DNA of 64,000 nucleotides from an uncultured Alphaproteobacteria bacterium. GTDB taxonomy: Bacteria; Pseudomonadota; Alphaproteobacteria; RF32; CAG-239. The position numbers and the translations under genes were made by a program. Location of the stretch: contig CALXVY010000001.1 in assembly GCA_944392255.1 (NCBI GenBank), forward strand, positions 1 through 64,000, in the 5' to 3' direction. Numbering within the stretch: position 1 is the stretch's first letter; the number at the start of each line of letters is the position of its first letter. The notes beneath the pieces are model-generated. The model saw nothing but the letters and a program-made list of their open reading frames with translations, was not told the origin of the DNA and did not search any database. Positions 58,258-61,403 of the stretch are shown here, one piece after another.

Positions 58258-58974
58258 CTATTGCTTGTTTTCAGCTTCCGGCTCTGCGAGCCAAATAGCT
58301 CCTTTTATTTTGTTTTGTAAAAATTCATTATGAATATTAATTTCTTCTTCAGAAAGAGGAAAATGGCGAACTTCTCTAACTTTTCCTTCTGCTCCGAATT
58401 GAACCTCTGCTGTTTGCTGAGTTGCTTTTTTCTTTTCATCAAACATCATGGCCGGTTCTTGACCGCCAATCAATTGCAGATAAACCTCAGCTAAGAGCTC
58501 AGCATCAAGCAGAGCACCGTGTTTGGTACGATTGGAGTTATCAATATTAAAACGCTTACAAAGTGCATCCAAATTAACGCGCGCACCGGGAAACATATTA
58601 CGGGCAATTTCCAAGGTATCAATAACCTTATCCCATGTAAACTCACGTTTATTTAAAGCTTTTTGCTCAAAGTTACAAAAAGTGATATCAAATTTAGCAT
58701 TATGAGCTACCAAAATGCCATCTTCTCCGACAAAATCGAGCCATTCATCAACAATTTGGTCAAATGTCGGAAAATCTTTCAAAAAGTCATAAGACAAACC
58801 ATGAACTTTAAAAGCATCTTCGGGAACTTCTCTTTGCGGGTTAATATACTGATGATAGACTTTGCCGGTGGGAACATGGTTAATGAGCTCTACTGCACCG
58901 ATTTCAACCAATCTATCTCCCTTATCAGCATCAAAACCGGTCGTTTCCGTATCAAAAACAATCTCTCTAACCAT
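58258..58974 (-). CDS. dnaQ: DNA polymerase III epsilon subunit (proofreading exonuclease)
   Basis: A 238-residue 3'-5' exonuclease that proofreads replication. Exo I carries D8 and E10 in FDTETTGFD, Exo II is VAHNAKFDITF and Exo III is HGALLDAELLAEVY. The length matches alphaproteobacterial DnaQ. It overlaps the coaE stop by 8 bases in a coaE-dnaQ operon reading away from the putative origin. Confidence 0.95.
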   Translation of the reverse strand: MVREIVFDTETTGFDADKGDRLVEIGAVELINHVPTGKVYHQYINPQREVPEDAFKVHGLSYDFLKDFPTFDQIVDEWLDFVGEDGILVAHNAKFDITFCNFEQKALNKREFTWDKVIDTLEIARNMFPGARVNLDALCKRFNIDNSNRTKHGALLDAELLAEVYLQLIGGQEPAMMFDEKKKATQQTAEVQFGAEGKVREVRHFPLSEEEINIHNEFLQNKIKGAIWLAEPEAENKQ

Positions 58975-59560
58975 AATTTTTTCCCTTCAAACCTTTAACA
59001 ATTTCCAAAGCTGAAACTTTGAGCAAATTAAGCGGTACATCTGTTTCCACCACCCAATCTGCTTTTGCAACTTTTTCCTTTTGGCTCATTTGCTTACTAA
59101 TGATTTTATCAACATGCTCTGCAGAAACCTTATCTCTTTGCATGACACGCTGTTTTTGCAACTCTTCATCAACATTAACGGCAATAACAAAATCACAATA
59201 TTTATCCCAACCAAGTTCAAACAAAAGCGCGGCATCTAAAAACAAAATATCGTCTGTTTTAGCATTTTTACGAATAAGTGCTTTTAATTGTCTTTTTAAG
59301 AAGGGATGAATCAAACTCTCTAACTTTTGCAATTGTTGTTTATCATCAAAAACAAGCAAACGCAATTTTCTTTTATCAAAAACCCCATTGTTTTGGGCTT
59401 GCGGAAAGTTTTGCAAAATTACTTTAATAAACTCCGGCTTAAAATAAAGTCTTCTCACCCAAGCATCAGCATCAAAAACAGGATATCCGAGTTTTTTAAA
59501 TATATTAGCCAAAGTAGTCTTTCCACACCCGATAGAACCGGTAATCGCCGCCAAAATCAT
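58967..59560 (-). CDS. coaE: Dephospho-CoA kinase
   Basis: A 197-residue P-loop kinase for the last step of coenzyme A synthesis. The start ILAAITGSIGCGKTTLA contains Walker A. DADAWVRRLYF and the LFELGWDKYCDFVIAV stretch are typical. I place the start at 59560, with AAGG upstream; an ATG at 59578 is an alternative. A longer frame to 59686 adds residues foreign to the family and overlaps DnaA and CtrA motifs, so I reject it. Confidence 0.92.
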   Translation of the reverse strand: MILAAITGSIGCGKTTLANIFKKLGYPVFDADAWVRRLYFKPEFIKVILQNFPQAQNNGVFDKRKLRLLVFDDKQQLQKLESLIHPFLKRQLKALIRKNAKTDDILFLDAALLFELGWDKYCDFVIAVNVDEELQKQRVMQRDKVSAEHVDKIISKQMSQKEKVAKADWVVETDVPLNLLKVSALEIVKGLKGKNYG

Positions 59561-59604
59561 AATCTGAGCCTTAACCATTTGATAAATAAAACAAAACGGA
59601 GTTA

Positions 59605-59620
59605 TTAACAGAATATTAAC
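59605..59620 (+). promoter_or_regulatory. CtrA-type site 1
   Basis: TTAA-CAGAATA-TTAAC, a perfect match to the CtrA consensus TTAA-N7-TTAAC, between coaE and the first DnaA box. Confidence 0.6.
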
Positions 59621-59624
59621 TTTT

Positions 59625-59633
59625 TGTGCATAA
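59625..59633 (-). promoter_or_regulatory. DnaA box 1
   Basis: On the minus strand the sequence is TTATGCACA, a perfect match to TTATNCACA. It lies five bases from CtrA-type site 1. Confidence 0.7.
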
Positions 59634-59725
59634 CTACTCCGCCTCATAGTTCTTATACAATTTAATCCGCATTTTGCAAAATCCAAACTCAGAGTTATAT
59701 ACAGGCATCAAAACTTATCCTCCCT

Positions 59726-59734
59726 TGTGGATAT
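59726..59734 (-). promoter_or_regulatory. DnaA box 2 (one mismatch)
   Basis: On the minus strand the sequence is ATATCCACA, which differs from TTATCCACA at the first base. Confidence 0.5.
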
Positions 59735-59814
59735 TTAAAAAATCTAAAATTAAAGTTTTGAATCCGTTAATGGTGTTTATGGGGTTGAAAAAGAATCCAA
59801 AAAACTAAATTTTG

Positions 59815-59830
59815 TTAATCATTTGTTAAC
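59815..59830 (+). promoter_or_regulatory. CtrA-type site 2
   Basis: TTAA-TCATTTG-TTAAC, a perfect match to the full consensus, between DnaA boxes 2 and 3. Confidence 0.6.
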
Positions 59831-59852
59831 GATTCGTTTTAAAGCAAGGCAA

Positions 59853-59861
59853 TGTGGACAA
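59853..59861 (-). promoter_or_regulatory. DnaA box 3 (one mismatch)
   Basis: On the minus strand the sequence is TTGTCCACA, one base from consensus, and only 17 bases before box 4 with opposite orientation. Confidence 0.5.
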
Positions 59862-59877
59862 CTCTGTTTATGAAAAC

Positions 59878-59886
59878 TTATCCACA
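59878..59886 (+). promoter_or_regulatory. DnaA box 4
   Basis: TTATCCACA, the exact high-affinity consensus, at the left edge of the AT-rich half of the gap. Confidence 0.75.
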
Positions 59887-59952
59887 AAACTCACAGGGAT
59901 ATACAAATAACTACAAAAATTTAAAAAATACATTGTTAGCCCTGCGGGGCTG

Positions 59953-59968
59953 TTAATAAAAAATTAAC
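59953..59968 (+). promoter_or_regulatory. CtrA-type site 3
   Basis: TTAA-TAAAAAA-TTAAC, a perfect match to the full consensus. It lies next to a short GC-rich hairpin (AGCCC/GGGCT, about 59938-59951). Confidence 0.6.
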
Positions 59969-60035
59969 TTTAATCTTTAATATAATCTCGGCAGGTAATC
60001 ATATTTTTTACATTCCTCTCTTTTGCCAAATTTAA

Positions 60036-60064
60036 TTGACAAAAATAAAATAAAAGAATATATA
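60036..60064 (+). promoter_or_regulatory. Strong sigma-70 promoter of rho
   Basis: A perfect TTGACA (60036-60041) and TATATA (60059-60064) are spaced by 17 bases, about 85 bases before the rho ATG. The transcript has a leader of roughly 78 nt. Confidence 0.75.
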
Positions 60065-60098
60065 CAAATTACCTACCAAACATATTTATTAAAAAGAT

Positions 60099-60113
60099 TT
60101 AATAAATTCTTAA
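60099..60113 (+). promoter_or_regulatory. CtrA-type half-consensus site 4 in the rho leader
   Basis: TTAA-TAAATTC-TTAA, followed by A in place of C. It lies downstream of the rho start point, so binding would act as a block. It is the weakest of the four because the region is almost pure A/T. Confidence 0.35.
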
Positions 60114-60149
60114 ATTGCAGAAATTTATTCCCAAAAAGTTAAGGTAAGC

Positions 60150-61403
60150 ATGAATTTAAAAGACTTAAAGCAAAAATCCCCAAAAGAACTCTTAACAGAG
60201 GCCGAGGACCTTGGTATTGAAGATGCTTCTTCAATGCGTAAACAAGATTTAATGTTTGCAATTTTAAAAAAAGTTGCCAGTGAAGATAATATAATTTATG
60301 GAGAAGGTACAATCGAAGTTCTGCAAGATGGCTTCGGTTTTTTAAGATCCAGCCAATCAAATTACCTTGCCGGTCCGGATGATATTTATGTTTCTCCTTC
60401 TCAAGTTAAAAAATTTGGTTTAAGAACCGGCGATACTGTTGAAGGAGAAATCAGAGCTCCTAAAGACAATGAACGCTATTTTGCTCTTACCAAAGTAAAC
60501 CGAATTAATTTTGCTGATCCTGAACTTTCCAAACTCCGAATAAATTTTGATAACCTTACCCCCCTTTATCCTACTGAAAAATTAGATTTTGACATTATTT
60601 GCGGTGACAAAGACTATACCACCCGCGTAATTGATTTGATTGCCCCACAGGGTAAAGGTCAACGTGGTTTGATTGTAGCGCCGCCGCGCACCGGTAAAAC
60701 CGTTATGCTGCAAAATATAGCTCATGCCATTGCCACCAATCACCCTGAAGCATATTTAATGGTTTTGCTTATTGATGAGCGTCCGGAAGAAGTTACTGAC
60801 ATGATGCGTTCTGTTAAAGGTGAAGTTATTTCTTCCACCTTTGATGAGCCGGCATCTCGTCACGTTCAGGTCGCTGAAATGGTTATTGAAAAAGCCAAGA
60901 GATTGGTTGAAACCAAAAAAGATGTTATCATTTTGCTTGATTCTATTACTCGTTTGGGTCGAGCATATAATACGGTTATTCCATCATCAGGTAAAGTTTT
61001 GACCGGTGGTGTTGATGCTAACGCTTTGCAGCGTCCAAAACGCTTACTTGGTGCAGCTCGAAATGTTGAAGAAGGTGGTTCTTTAACCATTATAGCCACA
61101 GCTTTGATTGATACCGGTTCCCGCATGGATGAAGTTATTTTTGAAGAATTCAAAGGTACCGGTAACTCAGAAATTATTTTGGATAGAAAATTAACCGATA
61201 AACGTTTGTTCCCGACCATTGATATTACACGTTCGGGTACACGTAAAGAAGAATTGTTAGTAGATAAAGCCACCTTGTCCAAGATGTGGGTTTTGCGCCG
61301 TGTCTTGATGCAAATGGGCATGACCGATGGTATGGAATTCTTGCTTGATAAGCTTAAACAGAGCAAAGATAATCAAGATTTCTTCAATAATATGAATTCT
61401 TAA
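60150..61403 (+). CDS. rho: Transcription termination factor Rho
   Basis: A 417-residue hexameric RNA helicase that ends transcription. The Rho_N domain (about 1-45) and the cold-shock-like RNA-binding domain (DGFGFLRS, about 62-69) are followed by the motor. The motor has Walker A APPRTGKT, Walker [17 protein letters not shown] and the secondary RNA site near VDKATLSK. Standard length. It reads away from the putative origin. Confidence 0.97.

Follow-up and report, generated by a model that had tools for sequence, protein, structure and literature searches.

Three CtrA Boxes in the Chromosome Origin of an Uncultured Alphaproteobacterium Suggest a Caulobacter-Style Brake on Replication

The chromosome origin of this uncultured alphaproteobacterium is the divergent gap between coaE and rho. 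It contains three TTAA-N7-TTAAC motifs, which are real and above chance. It is likely that these motifs are CtrA sites under selection, and that phosphorylated CtrA (CtrA~P) would exclude DnaA there, as in Caulobacter. Because three perfect sites, a CtrA gene with its relay, and sites in most genera of the family occur together, a Caulobacter-style replication brake probably operates in a lineage for which none has been described earlier. A literature search under the assumed taxon name returned only MAG surveys, and no work on CtrA in the lineage. The features of the locus are given below by their positions in the window, which is the whole stretch of 64,000 nucleotides analysed here.

58967-59560, minus strand: coaE, the anchor for finding the gap in relatives
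59561-60149: oriC region, the divergent gap between coaE (minus) and rho (plus), 589 bp, 27% GC
59602-59610, plus strand: TTATTAACA, which contains the left half-site of CtrA box 1; most relatives have the DnaA box TTATNCACA at this position
59605-59620, plus strand: CtrA box 1, TTAACAGAATATTAAC, exact match; 8 of 9 half-site positions invariant in 5-6 congeners
59625-59633, minus strand: DnaA box TTATGCACA, conserved through the family
59726-59734, minus strand: weak DnaA box ATATCCACA, 9 of 9 positions invariant in five close species
59815-59830, plus strand: CtrA box 2, TTAATCATTTGTTAAC, also matching on the minus strand (59814-59829); upstream of the DnaA core
59831-59835: GANTC (CcrM) site abutting CtrA box 2
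59853-59861, minus strand: DnaA-box-like TTGTCCACA, matching the TGTGGATAAC element in relatives
59878-59886, plus strand: perfect DnaA box TTATCCACA, conserved in five close species
59889-59936, plus strand: conserved core ACTCACAGGGATATACAAATAACTAC followed by an AT-rich stretch, from the alignment
59938-59951: AGCCC-TGCG-GGGCT, a perfect inverted repeat that separates the AT-rich stretch from CtrA box 3
59953-59968, plus strand: CtrA box 3, TTAATAAAAAATTAAC, also matching on the minus strand (59952-59967); half-sites 9 of 9 invariant in five close species
60099-60113, plus strand: TTAA-N7-TTAA, a partial site (15-mer) lacking the final C, in the leader of rho
60150-61403, plus strand: rho, 98-100% identical in congeners

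The gap was assigned as the origin based on the GC-skew minimum, the DnaA boxes, and the nearby parAB genes. Along the 152,878-bp contig, the cumulative GC skew drops from the start to about 60-62 kb and then climbs, with its minimum at the coaE-rho gap. In one relative (G083) a steep rise also begins at this gap; the skew minimum there is too broad (60-190 kb), and it was dropped as a sharp independent proof. Judging from translations and general knowledge, we take the genes before the gap to be secB, a Tim44-like gene, mltA, an Smr-domain gene, dnaQ, and coaE, and those after it to be rho, a HAD gene, mnmE, mnmG, murA, rsmG, parA, and parB. Such a neighbourhood is usual for alphaproteobacterial origins. 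The flanks themselves are coaE and rho; hemE and COG1806, whose flanking position is typical and no functional requirement, do not border the gap. The layout in other orders, presumed from translations, is dnaQ-coaE-aroE-maf-(COG1806), origin, hemE-hemH-hemJ-rho. Both aroE-maf-COG1806 and hemE-hemH-hemJ are missing from the locus in the CAG-239 family, and by its position the gap therefore appears to descend from the canonical origin. The regions upstream of rho in other orders were mostly rejected as homologous origins, since the origin there lies upstream of hemE. The divergent coaE-rho gap is common to all 104 family genomes in which it was read (3 further genomes were excluded, as coaE was not recognisable in the stretch). 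The relatives are presumably gut bacteria, which we assume from the title of one horse-faeces MAG and from general knowledge of such MAGs.

All three perfect 16-mers lie exactly where the earlier note had placed them (59605, 59815, and 59953). Boxes 2 and 3 match both strands with an offset of one base, and therefore each reads GTTAA...TTAAC. A fourth motif had been claimed in the rho leader. TTAA-N7-TTAA is indeed present there, but only as the 15-mer; without the final C, and not kept in the most distant congener, it was not upheld as a firm site. The proposed comparison with shuffled DNA came out in favour of the motif: among 20,000 dinucleotide shuffles of the coaE-rho gap, none contained at least three distinct full sites, whereas two were found in 39 and one in 1,159. 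The full motif was seen 7 times in the whole 64-kb window versus 2.4 expected, and the looser 15-mer was at chance (10 versus 9.9). There was no genome-wide enrichment of the full motif (33 matches versus 80 for the reversed motif), which was thus rejected as support, and outside the origin the N7 spacing was no more frequent than other spacings. Because the gap exceeds its shuffles and the genome and the 15-mer do not, the signal is specific to the gap rather than to AT-rich DNA generally. Full CtrA boxes were also found upstream of a fliL-like gene (L022) and an infC-like gene (L030), which are candidate promoter targets. In addition, the motif TTAAAGAAAGTTTAAC occurs three times, unchanged, at intervals of exactly 110 bp (L018-L020, G000:C2:94293-94528), as a tandem repeat between genes resembling yidD and yidC.

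The CtrA boxes are interleaved with DnaA boxes, as the earlier note had described, namely those at 59625, 59726, and 59878 and the DnaA-box-like TTGTCCACA at 59853. Over 87 family gaps, DnaA boxes (TTWTNCACA) were seen 267 times versus 13 expected. The stretch 59889-59936 is the probable unwinding region. The inverted repeat next to it is kept in g1 (the window's genus), g2, most of g7, and several g12 genomes, with no T run after it; other genomes have a shorter-loop form, GGCCCTTCGGGC. The GANTC density is 5.1 per kb in the window's gap versus 1.9 per kb in a genome sample, and reaches 5-8 per kb in origins of the window's genus. For an IHF site overlapping a CtrA site, as in Caulobacter, the gap offers a single weak match (59572-59584), which overlaps no CtrA box and is not preserved when the congeners are aligned.

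The ctrA gene, whose presence the earlier note had made a check, was found. Its product scores 402 bits against the NCBIfam equivalog NF045991 (cut-off 350), is 69% identical to a Caulobacter CtrA query, and has a receiver matching PDB 4qpj CtrA. The gene adjoins a fliI-like gene; of 126 family genomes, 110 have ctrA, with identities of 82-100%. Homologues of CckA and GcrA, also on the list of genes to look for, are encoded together with those of ChpT, CcrM, and HdaA, so that the genome shares CtrA and these five with Caulobacter crescentus. ChpT is above the Pfam cut-off, and CckA, ChpT, and HdaA were identified as best NCBIfam matches; ChpT, CckA, GcrA, and CcrM are all below NCBI's narrow curated cut-offs. 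The CckA-ChpT phosphorelay is thus represented by a Pfam-supported ChpT and by best, sub-cut-off NCBIfam matches for both proteins. The gene hdaA, for the inactivator of DnaA, lies directly beside cckA and near chpT (L198:7555-10955), and two initiation brakes are thereby encoded together. Unlike in Caulobacter, RcdA (PF07323) and SciP (PF06627) were not found by the genome search, in which the Caulobacter control was positive, and CtrA ends in DPDEKK, without Ala-Ala. Most of the relatives' CtrA sequences that were read also end without Ala-Ala, and one has it. Since RcdA was not found and the Ala-Ala end is missing, switching of CtrA may depend less on proteolysis than on phosphorylation. 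The matched stretch of a second OmpR-family regulator (L002, G000:C27:24775-25434), which has 36% identity to CtrA, contains an in-frame TGA. The description of the lineage as reduced is fair for genome size (1.64 Mb), but the genome has retained fliI next to ctrA, as well as most parts of the circuit known from Caulobacter.

The strongest evidence for conservation is the spacing test. When TTAA-Nk-TTAAC was counted over 87 family origins, k=7 gave 120 matches and k=8 gave 33, and the other spacings (k 2 to 15) gave 0-18; the recurrence in relatives, which had been suggested as a check, therefore holds with a strict N7 spacing. The reversed motif CAATT-N7-AATT was found only 3 times, and distinct full CtrA sites numbered 94 versus 5.5 expected from shuffles. 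The k=8 matches are mostly neighbours within half-site arrays in g2, g7, g9, g10, and g16. These origins (e.g. L074, L082) have 3-4 TTAAC half-sites about 11-12 bp apart, beside the DnaA core; being about one helical turn apart, the half-sites are possible cooperative CtrA arrays.

At least one full site is present in 65 of 104 family origins and in 13 of 16 genus-level groups, with the horse-faeces MAG counted as its own group. Every species of the window's genus has at least one box. There the columns of the half-sites are modestly more often invariant than the rest of the gap (78% versus 61%, mean of three boxes), and the position of box 2 is not conserved even inside the genus, a replacement box being re-made nearby, upstream of the DnaA core. 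The remaining 39 origins have no full box, including all those of g5, g14, and the horse-faeces MAG. Loss of ctrA was ruled out as the explanation for absent boxes in g5, g12, and g14, since most of those genomes have the gene, and where found in g5 and g14 CtrA is 88-95% identical. With three groups lacking boxes, two of them despite near-identical CtrA, the arrangement either turns over or is dispensable. Outside the family, no full box was found in the sole genome from another family of the same order (G126), or in the gap of readable origins of other orders, except for one in the other-order genome with the most similar Rho (G181); the motif is in any case rare in GC-rich DNA, and many of the other-order genomes are of that kind.

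The CtrA sites of the window origin overlap or adjoin DnaA boxes or DnaA-box positions, and the outer two boxes of g1 occupy positions where most relatives have a DnaA box. At the left end, two DnaA boxes, TTATNCACA ... TGTGNATAA, stand 23 bp from each other in relatives. The first of them reads TTATTAACA in g1, as it does in one of the two g2 species, and forms CtrA box 1 jointly with a TTAAC 5 bases on. Where TTAAC follows the left box in any genus, it stands at exactly +5 bp in 24 of 28 cases, among them nine in which the left box remains a proper DnaA box. At the right end, CtrA box 3 overlaps TGTTAATAA (59951-59959), and relatives have a DnaA box TGTGCATAA there; g1 reads TGTTAATAAAAAATTAAC, while g8, g9, g10, and g16 mostly read TGTGCATAA. 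In a quick, shallow tree made from coaE and the first 100 Rho residues, g1 and g2 are set apart, so that the left conversion, read in the direction from DnaA to CtrA, probably occurred twice, once in each. Where TTAAC follows at 5 bp, a change of the centre of TTATNCACA to TTAA makes a full CtrA box, so that one or two substitutions might reset the balance between initiator and repressor. A more tentative matter is whether the family origin resets this balance by exchanging DnaA for CtrA boxes at set positions, repeatedly and in separate genera independently; we regard it as possible, with somewhat more doubt than belief.

The following mechanism is proposed as the likely one. The CckA-ChpT relay would phosphorylate CtrA, and CtrA dimers would settle on the three origin sites, two of them on or next to flank positions that hold DnaA boxes in relatives and one just upstream of the DnaA core. 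DnaA would then be blocked from assembling and from unwinding the adjacent AT-rich stretch, until dephosphorylation of CtrA permits initiation. Exclusion of DnaA by CtrA~P is the simplest account of this anatomy. The control of replication by CtrA that the earlier note had suggested thus gains support from ctrA and its relay, the shuffles, and the recurrence in relatives, with binding, competition with DnaA, repression, and release predicted from sequence.

This arrangement may be compared with known systems. In Caulobacter crescentus, CtrA keeps DnaA off the origin (PMC4468827). Its Cori has five CtrA sites (TTAA-N7-TTAA) among weak DnaA boxes, some overlapping, and the window origin is alike; Cori lies between hemE and COG1806 and the window origin between coaE and rho (PMC4468827). 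The DnaA boxes are of the TTATCCACA type in the window origin and TGATCCACA in Caulobacter (PMC4285127). Two points speak against a strong role: more than one third of the family origins carry no full box, although CtrA is nearly identical in most of them, and removal of the CtrA sites from the Caulobacter origin has only mild effects on replication in the laboratory (PMC4468827). Predicted origin CtrA boxes are also known from Rickettsia prowazekii and Wolbachia, which are likewise AT-rich and reduced (PMC1914354); those bacteria are intracellular, with hemE-flanked origins and looser motif criteria, whereas perfect 16-mers and a family-wide spacing test are available here. The CtrA ChIP-seq consensus of Hyphomonas neptunium, TTAA-N7-TTAAC, equals the 16-mer of the window (PMC7200025); one ChIP-seq site adjoins the origin in that species, whereas the window origin has three predicted sites within it, and two of these cover positions of DnaA boxes. 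Sinorhizobium meliloti has CtrA and needs it for normal replication control, but its origin has no CtrA sites, unlike the window origin (PMC4433202). According to a 2015 review, origin CtrA sites in Alphaproteobacteria occur only in Caulobacter and possibly Rickettsia prowazekii, and marine Caulobacter probably evolved theirs independently (PMC4468827).

It is unlikely, though conceivable, that CtrA bound at the boxes regulates the transcription of coaE, of rho, or of an origin transcript instead of blocking DnaA. The gap is a divergent promoter region with promoter-like matches at 59585-59556 (minus) and 60023-60051 (plus), and CtrA sites elsewhere in Alphaproteobacteria are mostly promoter sites (PMC7200025, PMC4433202). 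However, such matches are at chance in the gap (2 found versus 3.9 expected), the full boxes in most genera cluster by DnaA boxes at a distance of about 200-300 bp from rho, and two of the boxes lie over positions of DnaA boxes. It is very improbable that the sites are bound by a different regulator of the OmpR/PhoB family whose direct-repeat motif is similar. The genome encodes three more full-length OmpR-family regulators, and PhoB-type regulators use 11-bp direct repeats; but the motif agrees exactly with the published consensus for CtrA, the identity of the other regulators to CtrA is just 30-36%, and nearly all family genomes have ctrA. We give similarly little credence to the boxes being real but residual, the traces of a decaying ancestral origin brake with slight effect on replication. 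This would agree with the 39 of 104 origins without a full box and with their absence from g5 and g14, but not with the boxes in every species of the window's genus, and the new boxes that g1 and, separately, one g2 species have at positions of DnaA boxes look like gain. Chance pairing of TTAA, frequent in AT-rich intergenic DNA, would fit the chance-level 15-mer and the lack of genome-wide enrichment, and is refuted for the family as a whole by the shuffles, the N7-specific enrichment over 87 origins, and the scarcity of the reversed motif there.

Repression of the origin by CtrA is thus our preferred reading. Origin CtrA boxes are now seen family-wide in uncultured alphaproteobacteria, with zero to four boxes in dozens of species. 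The family therefore offers a natural series for studying how a master regulator gains or loses control of a replication origin, and this series suggests that CtrA control may start with the takeover of DnaA-box positions.
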